Virus record (IMG/VR): IMGVR_UViG_3300032315_001715
Location: 124,001 to 188,000 of that record
Strand: one strand, 5' to 3'
DNA from: a virus
DNA length: 64,000 bases
In this document: in pieces, positions 1 through 56,279 of the stretch
Layout of the letters: the number at the start of each line of letters is the position of its first letter
Numbering within the stretch: the stretch's first letter is position 1
Translations under genes and position numbers: made by a program
The notes under the pieces: generated by a model
The model's database searches: none
What the model saw: the letters and a program-made list of their open reading frames with translations, nothing else
What the model was told of the DNA's origin: nothing

Positions 1-37
1 CAGCAACCAAGCTTACGATGTATTCCCGTTCAATCAT
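1..37 (-). CDS. 5' end of an unidentified CDS running off the left edge
   Basis: An ATG on the minus strand (35-37) overlaps the TGA stop of the tail-spike gene (34-36) in the ATGA arrangement used throughout this genome. The frame stays open to the window edge and reads MIEREYIVSLVA. Only 12 residues are visible, so no function can be assigned. The coupling to the spike gene suggests another late virion or tail gene. Confidence 0.4.
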   Translation of the reverse strand, partial: MIEREYIVSLVA

Positions 38-1728
38 GCCGGAGTACCATCGTCTAGGTTTATCCATGCGCCATTTTGATAGCCCTGGAATCTATTTGCC
101 GTGGTGTTATAGACCATGTCACCGTTGCTTGCCGTGATTAGATTTCTAGCGGTCGTGGTAAATGACGCCAGCCTAAACGGTGAGGATGTTACATCTACTC
201 GATTTGCTGCTGTAAGCAACAGATTGGTTGCCGACACGATTTCCGGTGTGCCAGCCGATGTGGTTATAACATTACCACCAACATAGAGATTTCCTGCGAT
301 ACCAACACCGCCTGCCACTTGCAGCGCACCGCTAGAGATGCTTGTTGACACCGTTGTGTTGCTGATGATTACTATGTTTGCGCCGTTAAATGTCCCGCTG
401 CCAGCTGGTCCGGTTGGTCCAGTTGCACCGCCGCTACCCGCTCCGCCGGCTGGCCCAGTTGGTCCAGTTGCACCGCCGCTACCCGCTCCGCCGGCTGGCC
501 CAGTTGGTCCAGTTGCACCCAGGCTTCCCGGTATGTTGATCACCTGCGGATCAAGCGTGATGTTGGTTGATCCAAGATCGATTACATTGAGAACCGTGTC
601 AAAAACGTCGCCAATGCTGGAACACAGTGATGTGCCTAAATCCCACAATATCGGGCTGTCAGACAGCGAAACACCGCAGTTCTTAAACGAGTTACCTATC
701 GATGTAATGCCCGGATTCGGGCTATACACCTGTATTCCTCCGGAATCAATCGTGTCAAACACCGACTGAGATACAGTTGTGTAAGAAGGACCGTCATACC
801 CCGTGGCAAGATAATCCGATCCCACGCAGATACCGGAATATAATTCGTAAAACCAACACCTCGACATCCTGGTGTGTTCTACCGGATCGTCTGCATAGAT
901 ACCATATGTGAAGTTGCCAAAGTCACAATCCACAAACTGTGAATCATAGGTAGGTGTTGCGTCGCCAATGCTTTGCAACCTCACCGCTGCATGCGCATCA
1001 GTTGTGAGATCGCCCGAAGAATACCCGCCGACAAATCGAATCGACTCAAGTCGAACTCCCTGGTATCTAACTAGATTACACGCATCGATCTTTAAACCGT
1101 CCGTGCTGAGTGTCATGTTTCCTAACAGGATCCGTGTTGGAAGCTGTGCGCTACCGAGGCCTATGTTAGCAGCGGTTTGACCGAGGCTGTCGGCGGTGAT
1201 AAACATTGATGATCCAGAAAAACCAGCATCTGCTACGATGATGGTTTTATCAATGCCGTCTCCTATCAACGTTACATATGGGTACAGTAATATTGGTTGT
1301 GAAATACGATAAATACCAGCCGGCATCCTAAGTAGAACGCGCAATCCGGCATTTGTTGGGGTTGTTGTGCCAGATCGTCCAAGCATCTCAGCAATAGCAG
1401 CATTGATAGCAATCGAATCGTCAGATTCTCCGTCGCCAGTAGCACCGAAATCTTTAACACTTGCTGCATCGTTGAGCTTTTGCCCAATCGACCGTATGGC
1501 GCTTGAATCCAAGGTCGTGTCAAAGGTACGGAACTTGGTTATGATTAGATCAGTGTTTGGACCGTGTTCTGTTAAAACCGCGGTATTTTGACCAAAGCCG
1601 GGTGCATTGCCAATGAAAAGTTCTCTGGTATCCAAGCACCAGCCGAACTCACCCTCGGCTAATGCCGGGGGCAAATCAGCCCTGAGACCTCGTCTCTGTT
1701 GCATTCTAGAGATTGATGTGATGGCCAT
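34..1728 (-). CDS. Tail spike/fibre with pectate-lyase-like beta-helix and collagen-like repeats
   Basis: This 564-residue protein is probably a receptor-binding or glycan-degrading tail spike or fibre. Residues 1-55 (RRG..ADLP..AEGEFGW.LDT.ELFIG) match the N-terminal domain common on phage fibres that bind the virion. From about residue 88, the VKDFGATGDGESDD segment is the classic start of a phage pectate_lyase_3 right-handed beta-helix. A Gly-Pro-Thr/Ala collagen-like stretch follows near residues 403-443. The C-terminus (about 530-564, GDMVYNTTANRFQGY.NG.W) is a small distal-fibre module. A late promoter motif lies 28 nt upstream and AGGAAG serves as ribosome site. The enzymatic specificity cannot be read. 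Confidence 0.8.
   Translation of the reverse strand: MAITSISRMQQRRGLRADLPPALAEGEFGWCLDTRELFIGNAPGFGQNTAVLTEHGPNTDLIITKFRTFDTTLDSSAIRSIGQKLNDAASVKDFGATGDGESDDSIAINAAIAEMLGRSGTTTPTNAGLRVLLRMPAGIYRISQPILLYPYVTLIGDGIDKTIIVADAGFSGSSMFITADSLGQTAANIGLGSAQLPTRILLGNMTLSTDGLKIDACNLVRYQGVRLESIRFVGGYSSGDLTTDAHAAVRLQSIGDATPTYDSQFVDCDFGNFTYGIYADDPVEHTRMSRCWFYELYSGICVGSDYLATGYDGPSYTTVSQSVFDTIDSGGIQVYSPNPGITSIGNSFKNCGVSLSDSPILWDLGTSLCSSIGDVFDTVLNVIDLGSTNITLDPQVINIPGSLGATGPTGPAGGAGSGGATGPTGPAGGAGSGGATGPTGPAGSGTFNGANIVIISNTTVSTSISSGALQVAGGVGIAGNLYVGGNVITTSAGTPEIVSATNLLLTAANRVDVTSSPFRLASFTTTARNLITASNGDMVYNTTANRFQGYQNGAWINLDDGTPA
402..517 (-). repeat. 45-bp tandem repeat encoding collagen-like Gly-X-Y
   Basis: A 45-nt unit recurs almost exactly: agttgcaccgccgct begins at 421 and 466, and agttgcacc again at 511. 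It encodes the 15-residue unit GATGPTGPAGGAGSG. The near-identity at DNA level indicates recent slippage or duplication. Copy number is therefore likely to vary between relatives, changing the length of a flexible or trimeric collagen-like stalk. Confidence 0.85.
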
Positions 1729-27057: not shown

Positions 27058-29607
27058 TTAATAGGTAATCTTTGTCTGGGTAAACGGATACTCAACCGAC
27101 TCGTAGAACTTCTTCCGCTTTAAAAGGTGGCGGTTAGAAAACTTGCACTTGCTTGATACGTCGAATATCTCAACGGCTTCCTTGTCATCAGCCTTTCGGA
27201 GTCCTCGTCCAATGCTCTGGATCACGCGCACAAAGCTCTTACCAGGTTCGATGAGAACCAAGTTGAATATTCGATTGATGCTGATGCCTGTGCTGGTGGT
27301 GCCATATGTGGCGATCATTATGGCATTATCAGCCAAGTTAATCTCCTTGTATGCCTCCTTGCGTTTGGTACTCTTCATCTGTCCACTAATAAAGGTCGAA
27401 CCATCGATGAGCTCGTGTAATATGTCACCGGTCTCGATCCTATCCACCAAGATCAGTGTGTTACCGCTTTCGGATATCTCCTGTATCTTTCCAGCCAGCC
27501 ACGTTAATCGATCTCGGTTGGTAACAAGATACTTGAGCTCGCTCTGATAGTCGTTGTAAACGACCGCATCCTGTGTTTGCAAGATGTTCACATGGCACTG
27601 GGCTAGATATCCTTTATCTTGCAATTCCTTGGCACTGAGCTTGCCAATGATTGGCCCGATGGCGCTGTAAAGACTGACCTGGTTGTATTCCTCTTCCGGA
27701 ATGGTACCAGTTAATCCCCAACGAATAGGTATGTTGGAAAATACCGTGGTTAATAGATTATGCAACACATTCATGTTCTTCACGCTGTGGACTTCGTCGC
27801 AAATTACCGCAACCAATCCGTCCAGAAACACCGTTAGCTGGTCGTCGTCAAGCGCATCCTTGCTTTTCTTGTCAAGGACCATGAGGCTCTGCCAGGTGCA
27901 GATCGTGTGCGTACGAGTGTATTCCTTGCGATCACCATATAGCACGCCAACGTCGAGACCGATGTTTCGATAATCCTCTTCCGTTTGCTGCACGAGATTT
28001 TTGTTCGGAACGATGACTATGGTACGCCCATATTGCTCGGCTAACTTGCTGAGGCTTGCGGTAATGATCGTATTATGAGTTACAACATATCCATCTGTTA
28101 GATATAGATGGTCTGGATGGTCGACCATAATACACCGAACCGGCTCGTTAGATACCTTTTTGATATCAATAATATGAAGCATTGGCGCCCGTCTCACAAC
28201 TCTAGATGATACACGGTCAATCTTCCTGGGCATTGTAACCAGTATACCAGGCGTTGGATGGTATATAGACACGTTATAAATATCCTTGCAAGGTGTCATT
28301 TCTCCCTTATAACGATACATCCGATTGGTGCCTGCGGTGACATTAGCAATACCCCCGATGCTATGGAGCAGTTTTGCAAATCCATCGGCCAATTGTTGGC
28401 TAGTTGTTGTGAACGAAATGCATCCACGTTTGTCAACATATCCGTCAGTATCCAGAAGACCTTGTACCAACGACAGTCTTTGCGAATAGCTACTATTGAG
28501 ATATATAGGCGGTATAAACTTGGTATGACTATACGCCCCCTTTAGGCCAAGTTCTTCGATACGTGCCTTGTAGATGTGGTATGTTGGTTTTTTGATATCG
28601 GGCTGTGCATTGATATCACGCATCCATTCAGATCTTGCTTCCATATGAAGCTCATTTGAGCCAAATGAAATACTATAATCATATCGATCCTTGTGTTTTA
28701 GAACATATCTTGGGTCAAGCTTAGATGAGATCTTATCGACAATGAACTGATCAGCCGTTGAGATGCCAAAATTATCTCTAAATGATCCATCTCCGAGTAA
28801 TGCTCCTAGTAAGTACGGATCAATTGGTAAGTCTATATCGTTCGTCGTATCGAATACCATCGTTGGTAACGGGACTGACAGCGTCCGTTGATTGGTCCGT
28901 TGATACTCAATGATCTCCTTCAAGGAGATCACCTTCCATTTTTCAGTCCAATTGTGATTATGTACCTTCCATAAGTGCTCATCGCATGATCGTACCTTGC
29001 GACCGTCCTCAAATGTGATCTCATACACATCCTTTGGATCATGATCAAAGATTCCACTGACAACAGCCGAAGATCCGTCGGGTATCGCGACGAGATCACC
29101 TATCATGATATCTCCCATTGCCTTCCAACCACCAGGAACCTTAACGAGGCTCGATAGAGGTTGAGCCTTACCTGCCGATGTTGGGGCAATGCTGATGCCT
29201 TGCAGATTGCCAACGCACTCATTGATGGCCTGTATTTGATAGTCTCGTAGCATGATCGGTTGGCCGGCCATTCGATGGTCCGCCGGCCAGTTGATATGGC
29301 TTAGAAAGTTCTCGTTAACCTCGTGGAATTCAAACTCGTGCTTGGCACGATGATCCTGTATTTCAATTTCGTACCCGTTGTCGATAACAACCGGCAATAT
29401 CTTATCCAACAGGTTAAGATAGGTGCGGCCACCTAGGGTGCAAAAGCTCTGGGTGCCGTCCCATCTGCCCAAACGATAAGCCGGGCTATATCTTGCATGT
29501 GGGAGGAAATACTTGACCGCGTTAACACACGCTCGCCTGGTTACAAGATCCAAGCCGTCAATCTTTGCTGTACATTCGTCGACTATGACTATTTCTGCTT
29601 TTTTCAC
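27058..29607 (-). CDS. uvsW: UvsW-like superfamily 2 helicase interrupted by an intein
   Basis: The 849-residue precursor starts with GTG after GAGGATT. The N-extein has the UvsW domain (1-115), followed by the RDYQ motif (121-124). The Walker A motif APTSAGK-T is split at residue 147 by a 365-residue intein (148-512). Downstream come the DEVH box, the WGLTGTIPEEE motif and the C-terminal helicase domain. The mature protein would be 484 residues, close to T4 UvsW (503). UvsW remodels recombination intermediates and R-loops. Without splicing the ATP site is broken, so activity depends on the intein. Confidence 0.92.
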   Translation of the reverse strand: MKKAEIVIVDECTAKIDGLDLVTRRACVNAVKYFLPHARYSPAYRLGRWDGTQSFCTLGGRTYLNLLDKILPVVIDNGYEIEIQDHRAKHEFEFHEVNENFLSHINWPADHRMAGQPIMLRDYQIQAINECVGNLQGISIAPTSAGKAQPLSSLVKVPGGWKAMGDIMIGDLVAIPDGSSAVVSGIFDHDPKDVYEITFEDGRKVRSCDEHLWKVHNHNWTEKWKVISLKEIIEYQRTNQRTLSVPLPTMVFDTTNDIDLPIDPYLLGALLGDGSFRDNFGISTADQFIVDKISSKLDPRYVLKHKDRYDYSISFGSNELHMEARSEWMRDINAQPDIKKPTYHIYKARIEELGLKGAYSHTKFIPPIYLNSSYSQRLSLVQGLLDTDGYVDKRGCISFTTTSQQLADGFAKLLHSIGGIANVTAGTNRMYRYKGEMTPCKDIYNVSIYHPTPGILVTMPRKIDRVSSRVVRRAPMLHIIDIKKVSNEPVRCIMVDHPDHLYLTDGYVVTHNTIITASLSKLAEQYGRTIVIVPNKNLVQQTEEDYRNIGLDVGVLYGDRKEYTRTHTICTWQSLMVLDKKSKDALDDDQLTVFLDGLVAVICDEVHSVKNMNVLHNLLTTVFSNIPIRWGLTGTIPEEEYNQVSLYSAIGPIIGKLSAKELQDKGYLAQCHVNILQTQDAVVYNDYQSELKYLVTNRDRLTWLAGKIQEISESGNTLILVDRIETGDILHELIDGSTFISGQMKSTKRKEAYKEINLADNAIMIATYGTTSTGISINRIFNLVLIEPGKSFVRVIQSIGRGLRKADDKEAVEIFDVSSKCKFSNRHLLKRKKFYESVEYPFTQTKITY
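28072..29166 (-). mobile_element. Ala1 intein with LAGLIDADG homing endonuclease in the UvsW Walker A motif
   Basis: The 365-residue intein begins AQPLSSLVKVPGGW-MGDI-GD and ends LTDGYVVTHN, followed by Thr as +1 residue. Ala at position 1 replaces the usual Cys/Ser, as in the alternative splicing mechanism of class 2 inteins. Blocks C and E, LLGALLGDGSF (about 119-129) and LVQGLLDTDGYV (about 233-244), are the two LAGLIDADG motifs, each with an Asp. The HEN domain therefore looks intact. The terminal His-Asn for cyclisation is present. Insertion between GK and T of a P-loop is a classic conserved target site. Confidence 0.92.
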
Positions 29608-52244: not shown

Positions 52245-55200
52245 TTACGCAGAACCTCCTGGTAGAGGATCGCCAGTATTGAGTATCCTGATCGGGATAT
52301 AGATGAACTCAATCGCCTTTTCTGGCTTGATCGCAATATCAATCCACAGCTCGTTCCTGTCAATTCTTTCAGCGGTGTTGTTGCTGTCGTCGCAAACCAC
52401 GGCAAAGTCGTACACTGCCCGCAGAGTTTGCAGGTTGCGCATGAAGGAATTAAACGTAGCAACGACGTTCTGGCGCGTTTGCTGATCGTTAGGCTCAAAG
52501 AGGAACGGTTTTGCAAGTATATCTAGGTTGTATTTGAGATAGTTAATCAGCCGTACAACGTTGATTCGATCCAGTGCCGTGGGCACCGGGCTTAGGGTCT
52601 TCTGACCATATACCACAAGTCCTCGACCTGGAATGAACGCGATCGGATTGATCTTGTTGGCGTAGAGAACATCGCGCTGGCCTTGATTCAACCGGACCAC
52701 GCTGTATTCTTCCTCGGCATTGAGATATCCAACGCTTGCTACACCGGTAACCAATCCTCGGTTGAATCCTGCCGGAGCAAACCACGGATATGCAACCTGA
52801 TCGCTGTATGCTATGGTACGAAGGGCCATCATCGCCGCCGGTACCATTACTTCATTACCGTTGAGATCCGTTCCAAGACCCCAAGGATAGTAAAGGGCTG
52901 CATACGGAGTGCTGCTGGTTAGTCCATCTGGACCATTGCTTGCTGCACCGTTCTGATTGTTAGCCCATTCCGTGAACGCGGTGCCAGTTGGTTCTAGCGT
53001 TGCAGGTGTGTCAGCTACGATAAACGCAACTTCCTTCTTGTCAACATTTAGGGTGATCATTTCATCCAAGCATTCAACATATCCGGGGGTTGAAATGAGG
53101 TTGAAATAGGTTTCTTCGGCACGTGCTTCCTCGTTACCACTAATCGCACCCTGCAACCCGCGCACGATGACAGCCCTCTGTGCTGCATCGCCCATGTACG
53201 GTGCACCGTTGAGCTGATTGCCACTTTCGGTAACCCAACGGTCACGATAAGAATATGTCGTCGGTAGGTAGTTCTTTCGGAACACCTTGACGTTGTTGGT
53301 GCTGTAACGGGTATTAAACAACATCATACCGGCTGGATACAACATTGCATCTGGGCAATCTGGATCAACATAATCGCTGGTAACCATATCACTTTCAATT
53401 TGGCTGCCAGTTGCGGTGCCGTTAGCATTTGGACGTGCATCGGCAAACACGATCCCCTTGCTGGTGGTTCGATCGGTGTTATCGACCAACACCCAGCTTG
53501 CATCCATGCTGCTGTATCGATAGATTGCCGGATATGTCGATACGTTGGTATCAATCCAGATATCGTAATCAACCAATGCACCAAGAGTGCTTTGCTCAAG
53601 AGGAGCCTCGCTTGACAATATCGGTCCGTTTGGATCAGTTGCTGGATATGCATTCCTATAGCCAAGCCACTGTGTTCCGTTATTGACCATGATATCGGCA
53701 CGCAACGTTGTATTGTACCAAAGTGTGCCATCAACCGGAGTACCGCTCGGAGCAGACGCTGATGGAGTATAATCTAGGTCAACCCACGAAGTTCCATCCC
53801 ATTCCTTGATGACATGCGATGCTTCGGCCGGAGATGTGTTGTCGCTGTTATACAGCACAAACACGCTGCCGATTTGCTTGAGACTACCAAATGCAACATC
53901 AGCTGCCGACGTCGACGAATACATGGGAACCGTACCGGTGTTCGGCCTAATGTTTAGGGACCGCCATGCAGCTCCGGTATAGGTCTTAACCGAGTAGTTT
54001 GCACCTTGGTTTCCCGGCGTGGTGTTGATCCACACATTGGTAGCAGCGATGCTGGATAGATCAGACGGTACAGTTAACCCTGGTGAATAACCCTGGTAAA
54101 CCAGCGAACGACCAAAGGTTACACCTGCAGCAATTCCGGCTCCTGCCAATGGGCTTTCCCTGATATCCTCAAGGATAAAACTGGTGCCATTGGTGTTGGT
54201 AAGTTTCAGCATGTTGTCGGTGGTCTTGCTTGCTACGATCGGACCGTTAGGGAATCCAACCGTATTGATTTCTGCAATCAATCCATCCAAGGTATTGTTA
54301 GGAAGGGCCGGAACGTGGATTATCACCGGGCCGCTGCCTGCGTCAATGCTGAAACTCACGCTCTGCAACCAGTCATCTATAAGATTAAACGTTGCGCCGA
54401 CTCCACCACCGGTGACCGACACCGGATTAGTTGGGTATATCGTATAGCTACCAGGAGTGGTAACAGTTACAGTGTTTACACCCCATACCAAGTCAACCGT
54501 TGCACTATCTCCGCCGCCGGAGGTCGAAGTTGCTGATACGTTTGTGGTAGGAGCAACAGCACCGGTATATTGACCAGCCTGGACAATGCTCAGCCCGGTA
54601 ATACCGTTCGATCCATCAATGCTGTCAACCTTCAATATCACCGGTGTTGCAAATCCAGCTCCGCTAAAGGTCAGCGTGTCATTAACATCGTATCCGCTAC
54701 CTGGGACGTTTGGAGTGCCTCCGACGACCTTAATGCTAGCGACTGTCAATACCGTTGCCGTGCTAAAGGTACCTCCAGCAACCGTCAACGCATCACTAAC
54801 CGCGTATCCGCTGCCAGCTGCTACCGAGGTAGCGCTTGCGGTCTTCAGCGTTGCTGCGGTAAACGTTGGATTGCTAACGGTGCCGGTTACGCTGGCCCAA
54901 TAGGTGTTGGTAGGAAGTATTCCTGCATTCCTCCACGGTGTTCCGACGCCATACTGATCACTGAGATCATTAACGATGATGTCGGTCGAATCATAGTTGG
55001 TTATGCGTAGATATTTTTGGCTACCAACGGTGTACACAGATGCCACGGCATTAACACTGGCCGTGTTAAGTGCAGTGTTGATTGCACCGACAAATCCAGT
55101 CAGCGTGCCACCAGATGGTACCGTAATCGTTGCTGTGCTCACTGCACCGATCGTGATCTTGCACTGAGTGCCGGCGGTAAATGTTGGATTTGCAACGGTT

Positions 55201-56279
55201 CCAGTTAACACACGCGGAGCAGCTTCTCGCCATCCGTATCCAGGATATGTATCATCGGTGCTGCCAACCTTGAACCACCAATTAGCCGTACCAGTGTTGG
55301 TGTTGACAGATATCTTTTCCCAGATCTCATTCTTGTAGCTACCGTCAGCCGCTTCGAGGGTATTCACGGCAAAATCACCAGAGGCGCCAAAGATCGTGGT
55401 AGGTAACACAACGTTGTCAGGCAGTGCTGTAAATCCTAAATCGGTTAGGATTCCGGCGGTTGAGCCGCCAAGAACAATGTCCTGTATCATGTTCGAGGTA
55501 ACCAGCCTTAGGCTAAACACGTCCCCGTAATCAGACGCCGATGGCGAATACTTTTCAGATCGAACAAAGACCTGTGCGCGAACCTGCTGTGTAGCAAGTG
55601 CTGGACTTCCGTTGATCTTGCTAGCCACGGTCGAAATGCTCATCCCTGCGGTTAGTGGCAAGGAAACACCGTTAACAATGAGATTTCCGTTGGCATTAAT
55701 GCAGCTACCAGATCCGCTGGTAATCTTCACAGTTGCATTACCTTGCACGATCTTTTCGAGATTTAAGCTAGAATTAATAACCAATGGCGTGCGGGCCTGC
55801 CAGCTAAATGCCGGGTTTGGATTACCATTGCTACGGAAGATGCCAAACGTGGACGAGCTTAGGTCAAGCCAATTTTGTCCGGCAGTTACAGGACCGGTCG
55901 GTTCGGTCGAAGTTGGGATCAACTGTCCAAGATCAACATTGGCGCGGACCACATATGCTTGATTGGCAATTCCGAGGTACTCATACAAGGTGAAAAGTCC
56001 AAGCTCGTTAAGCTGATTGCCCTGCTGCACGGTGCCAGCTGAGCTGTAAAACTGCGGATTGCCAAACGTCTGCAACGCATCTCGCTGGCTGGTAATCAAC
56101 CATAGCTTGCCGGCATTTTCTGCGGTGGTTCCAGGAGCAACGGACGTCGCACTACCTGGTTGCAGCTTGTTCTGCTTGGTAGCGATTACGATAAATGGTA
56201 CGGTGCCCGGTCCAGCTGGGCCATATTGGCTTTCGTCGGTTACGGTAACGCTTACACCTGGAGAAACTAAAATAGCCAT
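52245..56279 (-). CDS. 18: Tail sheath protein gp18, greatly enlarged
   Basis: The 1344-residue sheath is twice the T4 gp18 length (659). The conserved N-terminus MAILVSPGVSVTVTDESQYG and the C-terminal contractile domain from about residue 1000 (VAFIVADTPATLEPTG... VNVVRLINYLKYNLD..AKPFLFEPND) are standard. Between them lies an insertion of about 360-900 with small repeated domains. These include GSGY repeats (near 489, 527 and 568), TGTVxNPTFTA modules, and a fibre-type unit LWYNTTLRADIMVNNGTQW. The insert probably decorates the outside of the sheath. GAGGTAACAA and a late box precede it. Confidence 0.95.
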   Translation of the reverse strand: MAILVSPGVSVTVTDESQYGPAGPGTVPFIVIATKQNKLQPGSATSVAPGTTAENAGKLWLITSQRDALQTFGNPQFYSSAGTVQQGNQLNELGLFTLYEYLGIANQAYVVRANVDLGQLIPTSTEPTGPVTAGQNWLDLSSSTFGIFRSNGNPNPAFSWQARTPLVINSSLNLEKIVQGNATVKITSGSGSCINANGNLIVNGVSLPLTAGMSISTVASKINGSPALATQQVRAQVFVRSEKYSPSASDYGDVFSLRLVTSNMIQDIVLGGSTAGILTDLGFTALPDNVVLPTTIFGASGDFAVNTLEAADGSYKNEIWEKISVNTNTGTANWWFKVGSTDDTYPGYGWREAAPRVLTGTVANPTFTAGTQCKITIGAVSTATITVPSGGTLTGFVGAINTALNTASVNAVASVYTVGSQKYLRITNYDSTDIIVNDLSDQYGVGTPWRNAGILPTNTYWASVTGTVSNPTFTAATLKTASATSVAAGSGYAVSDALTVAGGTFSTATVLTVASIKVVGGTPNVPGSGYDVNDTLTFSGAGFATPVILKVDSIDGSNGITGLSIVQAGQYTGAVAPTTNVSATSTSGGGDSATVDLVWGVNTVTVTTPGSYTIYPTNPVSVTGGGVGATFNLIDDWLQSVSFSIDAGSGPVIIHVPALPNNTLDGLIAEINTVGFPNGPIVASKTTDNMLKLTNTNGTSFILEDIRESPLAGAGIAAGVTFGRSLVYQGYSPGLTVPSDLSSIAATNVWINTTPGNQGANYSVKTYTGAAWRSLNIRPNTGTVPMYSSTSAADVAFGSLKQIGSVFVLYNSDNTSPAEASHVIKEWDGTSWVDLDYTPSASAPSGTPVDGTLWYNTTLRADIMVNNGTQWLGYRNAYPATDPNGPILSSEAPLEQSTLGALVDYDIWIDTNVSTYPAIYRYSSMDASWVLVDNTDRTTSKGIVFADARPNANGTATGSQIESDMVTSDYVDPDCPDAMLYPAGMMLFNTRYSTNNVKVFRKNYLPTTYSYRDRWVTESGNQLNGAPYMGDAAQRAVIVRGLQGAISGNEEARAEETYFNLISTPGYVECLDEMITLNVDKKEVAFIVADTPATLEPTGTAFTEWANNQNGAASNGPDGLTSSTPYAALYYPWGLGTDLNGNEVMVPAAMMALRTIAYSDQVAYPWFAPAGFNRGLVTGVASVGYLNAEEEYSVVRLNQGQRDVLYANKINPIAFIPGRGLVVYGQKTLSPVPTALDRINVVRLINYLKYNLDILAKPFLFEPNDQQTRQNVVATFNSFMRNLQTLRAVYDFAVVCDDSNNTAERIDRNELWIDIAIKPEKAIEFIYIPIRILNTGDPLPGGSA

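Follow-up and report, generated by a model that had tools for sequence, protein, structure and literature searches.

Inteins that lack the N-terminal nucleophile otherwise required for splicing are found in class 2 as well as in class 3, and an alanine at position 1 (Ala1) is common to both. Class 2 consists of the KlbA orthologs, which have Cys at the +1 position, Ser at G:6, and a needed Asp at F:4 (PMC4031507), and class 3 inteins are distinguished by Trp B:12, Cys F:4, and Thr G:5, the WCT triplet, and usually by Ser or Thr at +1 (PMC5222942). Solved class 3 inteins include those of mycobacterial DnaB proteins (M. smegmatis DnaB-1, 6bs8; M. chimaera DnaB1, 6rix/6riy), which are mini-inteins without endonuclease located in bacterial DnaB. 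Class 3 inteins of phages (Bethlehem DnaB, Catera Gp206, terminases) have the WCT triplet, reside in phage genes, and carry a LAGLIDADG domain (PMC3196547, PMC5050341). The GK^T site of the P-loop is a classic insertion site in the literature (PMC5050341) and is also occupied by the phage terminase intein TerL1-a.

In this report, we describe an intein at the same GK^T site in a UvsW-like helicase gene, which lies in a 64,000-nucleotide stretch of viral DNA (the window). With the mycobacterial DnaB inteins it shares the HINT fold, His B:10, Trp B:12, Cys F:4, Thr G:5, the terminal His-Asn, and a near-identical block F motif (VRC.xVD.P.HLYL), but it differs from them by its full LAGLIDADG domain and its position in a phage uvsW gene. 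It likewise agrees with the phage class 3 inteins in its triplet, its phage host gene, and its LAGLIDADG domain, but it is set apart from them by its extein and by its membership in a separate uvsW-specific clade rich in Cys1. The M. jannaschii KlbA class 2 intein and its orthologs have Ala1 and the HINT fold in common with the window intein, whereas the KlbA type carries Cys+1, Ser G:6, and Asp F:4 and the window intein Thr+1, His, and the class 3 Cys at the corresponding positions. PI-SceI, the yeast VMA1 intein, shows the same architecture, a HINT domain split by a two-motif LAGLIDADG domain (Z 27.6 for the whole intein model; sequence match 1.9e-5), but belongs to class 1 (Cys1) and has an additional DNA recognition region. 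We read the window intein as a member of class 3 that carries an endonuclease, interrupts the P-loop of a jumbo-phage UvsW at GK^T, and would begin splicing with an attack by Cys345, and assign this reading a probability of roughly 0.93; it is well supported that this is a well-formed, essentially ordinary class 3 member, located in a recombination helicase and apparently still mobile.

The ends of the precursor protein (Table 1) matched ResIII (2.7e-11) and Helicase_C (1.6e-7) of Pfam, the protein matched a DNA helicase family of PHROG (1.7e-59), and its exteins are 47-50% identical to phage homologs, some of which are annotated as UvsW; the SF2 domains and the homology to phage UvsW proteins point to a UvsW-type SF2 helicase. 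The source is a 452,799-base virus record, corresponding to a phage of roughly 450 kb, in which no further copy of the intein and only a single LAGLIDADG_3 match were found. A second IMG/VR contig (L001, 170 kb) contains an identical copy and probably represents the same or a near-identical virus.

The intein begins with A1-Q2, ends with T363-H364-N365, and is followed by Thr+1, and the extein junction IAPTSAGK^TIITAS places it within Walker A exactly between Lys and Thr, in agreement with the initial annotation, which had proposed an intein with Ala1, terminal His-Asn, and Thr+1 at 28072-29166 that interrupts the GK-T of the UvsW ATP site. The intein-less alleles which that annotation proposed to look for exist: 62 homologous uvsW loci with both sides resolved are continuous across GK-T, with no insert and zero extra bases, and 18 rows of the comparison (three of them one sequence) contain an in-frame insert of 1089-1140 bases exactly at GK^T. 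As empty and filled loci agree at the junction, the boundaries are fixed by comparison and the motif is not their sole basis; in addition, the NCBIfam intein C-terminal model matched above its cut-off. As relatives, 150 complete inteins, all distinct, were collected from contigs of viruses and bacteria, and 149 of them are inserted at GK^T or GK^S, their hosts, assigned from motifs by eye, being P-loop ATPases of many kinds (UvsW, DnaB-type, SbcC/gp46-type, ClpB-type, RecD-type). The SAGK^T junction of the window intein is a P-loop site of this kind, and from its position it is reasonable to infer that UvsW activity would require splicing and that the unspliced helicase would be inactive.

Table 1 Features of the uvsW locus (positions in the window)
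Feature	Position	Strand	Evidence
UvsW-like SF2 helicase precursor ORF	27058..29607	-	849 aa, GTG start; stop within coordinates
N-extein of 147 aa, up to the Walker A Lys (...IAPTSAGK)	29167..29607	-	Joined directly to C-extein in 62 intein-less loci
Class 3 intein, 365 aa, A1 to N365 (ORF residues 148-512)	28072..29166	-	Termini, empty alleles, relatives
N-terminal part of HINT splicing domain, residues about 1-110	28837..29166	-	6bs8 alignment, AlphaFold2 model
Block B: His64 (B:10), Leu65, Trp66 (B:12)	28969..28977	-	His and Trp in 150/150 relatives
LAGLIDADG homing endonuclease (predicted), residues about 112-322	28201..28833	-	Pfam, relatives, fold match, dN/dS
Putative catalytic Asp126	28789-28791	-	Acidic residue in 135/150 relatives
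Putative catalytic Asp241	28444-28446	-	Acidic residue in 140/150 relatives
C-terminal splicing-domain segment with blocks F and G	28072..28188	-	NCBIfam, 6bs8 alignment, AlphaFold2 model
Cys345 (F:4), putative initiating nucleophile	28132..28134	-	Invariant among relatives
Block G: Thr363 (G:5), His364 (G:6), Asn365 (G:7)	28072..28080	-	Intein termini, relatives
Thr+1, the Walker A Thr that opens the C-extein; putative second branch point	28069..28071	-	Thr in 144 and Ser in 6 of 150 relatives
C-extein of 337 aa, with the helicase motifs that follow the Walker A Lys	27061..28071	-	ORF translation, Pfam

An AlphaFold2 model of the intein, built on a 50-row alignment, reached a pLDDT of 91.7 and a pTM of 0.89, and the predicted fold supports an intein with a LAGLIDADG endonuclease. 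When the splicing domain alone was compared with the class 3 structures 6bs8 and 6riy, a Z score of 18.2 was obtained, with rmsd values of 1.6 and 1.9 Å, respectively, and about 30% identity. Class 1 mini-inteins score about equally in such comparisons, so the fold cannot decide the class and the residues must do so.

Both LAGLIDADG motifs of the endonuclease (GALLGDGSF and GLLDTDGYV) were found with acidic catalytic residues, as is expected of an intein-borne enzyme of this family, and the domain matches Pfam LAGLIDADG_3 (PF14528) with 3.2e-9. The intact-looking motifs, the conservation of Asp126 and Asp241 among the relatives, and this match bear out the earlier view that the endonuclease blocks are complete. 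The closest non-identical relative (L002, which lies on the same contig as L102) differs from the window at 26% of the synonymous sites of the intein and at 65-80% of those of the exteins (pS 0.26 for the intein and 0.75 for the pooled exteins in the comparison with L002/L102; bootstrap 95% interval of the difference 0.39-0.60). The change occurs at the intein borders, where the nucleotide identity of this pair is 0.71 just before and 0.92 just inside one border and 0.97 just inside and 0.79 just after the other. Further uvsW pairs with the same pattern are L106-L079 (intein 0.27 vs extein 0.69), L108-L114 (0.04 vs 0.47), and L109-L110 (0.03 vs 0.65), and one intein-less uvsW gene (L022) is about 94% identical to the window extein. 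The empty alleles and the four pairs in which the inteins are closer than the exteins support the homing suggested in the initial annotation and form the pattern that would be expected from recent endonuclease-driven homing between related phages; the near-clade relatives are all metagenomic contigs, so that a chimeric assembly could mimic transfer in one pair, but not easily in four. In mixed infections, the LAGLIDADG domain would cleave intein-less uvsW at the conserved P-loop codons, and repair of the cut gene would copy the intein in; since the target codons differ at third positions among the empty alleles, a homing enzyme acting there would have to tolerate such variation.

For the endonuclease, a dN/dS of 0.17 was calculated from the window-L002 pair, a value that speaks for purifying selection on this domain; the two parts of the splicing domain gave 0.085 and 0.071. 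An intein that splices by the class 3 route, carries an endonuclease that is now inactive, and is inherited vertically would be compatible with the window phage taken by itself, for which vertical inheritance is possible, but this is improbable in view of the retention of both acidic residues, the apparent purifying selection on the endonuclease, and a transfer between diverged uvsW alleles that postdates most of the extein divergence.

The class of the intein is decided by two residues that had been overlooked by the initial annotation, Trp66 and Cys345. Block B reads CDEHLW, with Cys61 at B:7, His64 at B:10, and Trp66 at B:12; block F reads VRCIMVDHPDHLYLT, with Cys345 at F:4; and block G reads YVVTHN, with Thr363 at G:5. 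Of the splicing-block residues anticipated by that annotation, the terminal HN is present and TxxH is not, CDEHLW being the usual form in this lineage (Cys B:7 in 112/150 relatives). His64, Trp66, Cys345, His364, and Asn365 are conserved in all 150 relatives and Thr363 in 149, the count for Cys345 being partly built in by the search patterns that found most of the relatives (CIM..), which include the block F Cys. Loci recovered by extein patterns alone carried this Cys in every case, and a pure search-pattern artefact was rejected on this ground. Residue 1, on the other hand, is Ala in 121 relatives, Cys in 16, Met in 4, Ser and Phe in 3 each, and Asp, Glu, and Gly in 1 each, and is therefore unlikely to start the reaction, since an initiating residue would stay fixed. 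The window intein thus has Trp B:12, Cys F:4, and Thr G:5, a seemingly dispensable residue 1, and Thr+1, that is, every class 3 property that can be read from the sequence. The best sequence match in the PDB was the class 3 M. smegmatis DnaB intein 6bs8 (8.4e-12); the two sequences align across the N- and C-terminal halves of the splicing domain, and their Trp and Cys residues coincide. Because the class 3 residues are constant and residue 1 is variable, the first attack is most likely made by Cys345 and not by Thr+1.

From Ala1, the terminal His-Asn, and Thr+1, a class 2 mechanism with direct attack on the peptide bond at the N-terminal junction had been proposed. Apart from Ala1 in place of Cys, Ser, or Thr, no class 2 property was found: the Cys+1 that would act as first attacker is replaced by Thr, Ser G:6 by His364, and Asp F:4 with Thr B:7 by Cys345 and Cys61, and the assignment was rejected on these residues. 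The class 2 route is also very improbable in view of the fact that no class 2 intein is known outside the KlbA orthologs, which have Cys+1, Ser G:6, and a required Asp F:4 (PMC4031507), that a tested class 3 intein, Bvi IcmO, could not take this route (PMC5222942), that class 3 inteins are the nearest sequences of solved structure, and that the WCT triplet is complete. The window intein thus corrects the rule of thumb by which Ala1 is taken to indicate class 2. A splicing-defective or decaying intein that leaves the helicase cleaved or inactive has a precedent in the class 3-like pseudogene intein Arsp-FB24 Arth_1007 (PMC3196547), but is equally improbable here, where all catalytic residues are retained (Arth_1007 is without Cys F:4 and His B:10), the dN/dS values of splicing domain and endonuclease are low, and the helicase frame is open and conserved on either side. 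For the class 3 intein, the residues suggest a reaction in which Cys345, aided by His64 and Thr363, would attack the Lys(-1)-Ala1 bond to form a block F branched thioester, the N-extein would then move to Thr+1, cyclization of Asn365 would release the intein, and an acyl shift would rebuild the Lys-Thr bond and Walker A.

Class 3 inteins with Ser1 or Cys1 were reportedly described by Tori and Perler in 2011, with an N-terminal Ser in Catera Gp206. This intein is listed as class 3 (PMC3196547), and as class 3 inteins with N-terminal Ser are already known, a combination of Cys1 and WCT represents an extension and no new kind. A census of 2020 defined class 3 by the absence of Cys1 (PMC7891396), and the Cys1 inteins with WCT in uvsW would fall outside that census by this definition. 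Such inteins, which mix class 1 and class 3 features, were observed at the uvsW GK^T site in L057, L065, L078, L079, L092, L104, L106-L110, L114, L117, L119, L121, and L124. All 16 Cys1 inteins are hosted by uvsW, and together with the Ala1 inteins of the window, L102, and L003 they form one supported clade (SH-aLRT 100; 99/94 in a second tree), in which the Ala1 members are nested among mostly Cys1 inteins. A single Cys1 clade without the Ala1 members was rejected at a cost of 61 log-likelihood units with a p-AU of 0.0045, a value that is optimistic, as the tested group was named after the first tree had been viewed. The residue-1 codons (GCT/GCA for Ala, TGT/TGC for Cys) are separated by a change of at least two bases. 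The simplest history would be that Cys1 arose once from Ala1 and was then lost once or twice. As the nearest relatives at the uvsW site mostly have Cys1, both class 1 and class 3 may have had a part in the history of the intein. In a more far-reaching scenario, which we regard as rather unlikely, Ala1 class 3 ancestors gained Cys1 and kept WCT, the lineage of the window lost Cys1 again, and some Cys1 members may use both cysteines. If it were true, such members would follow a class 1, a class 3, or a mixed route, and these otherwise similar inteins would form a natural series between the chemistries. It has been argued that class 3 could not evolve directly from class 1 (PMC7664689), and the set of Ala1 and Cys1 inteins at the same site with identical triplets, which could show whether residue 1 contributes to splicing where both nucleophiles are present, bears on this argument.

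Several other loci deserve mention. The extein of L107 is about 86-90% identical to the window uvsW in the best-matching parts, but the Cys1 intein that it carries at this position shares only about 50% identity with that of the window, which makes an intein replacement likely; its C-extein frame stops early (193 aa), perhaps due to a frameshift or an assembly error. In L016, a terminase-like gene contains two tandem class 3 mini-inteins (252-695 and 705-1127) within one P-loop, with just three extein residues between them (RQ^intein^TGK^intein^TVCAL). In the same genome as the window but outside of it (L260, about G000:C1:294228-296676), a split intein apparently divides a family B DNA polymerase gene at DTD^S: the N-half ORF stops past block B and is followed by a separate 347-aa ORF, for which Pfam gave no match, and by a C-half ORF that opens with intein blocks F/G (HN^SGYF). 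This order resembles the "fractured gene" arrangement, in which a freestanding homing endonuclease lies between the split-intein halves. Within the window, a fibre-like protein with an Mtd_N domain and a pectate-lyase-like fold is encoded at 34-1728 (-); no match to the reverse transcriptase family PF00078 was found in the genome to go with this Mtd-like fibre, and thus no sign of a diversity-generating retroelement. At 52245-56279 (-), the window encodes a very large tail sheath protein of 1344 aa with extra N-terminal sequence (PHROG tail sheath, 2.3e-257).
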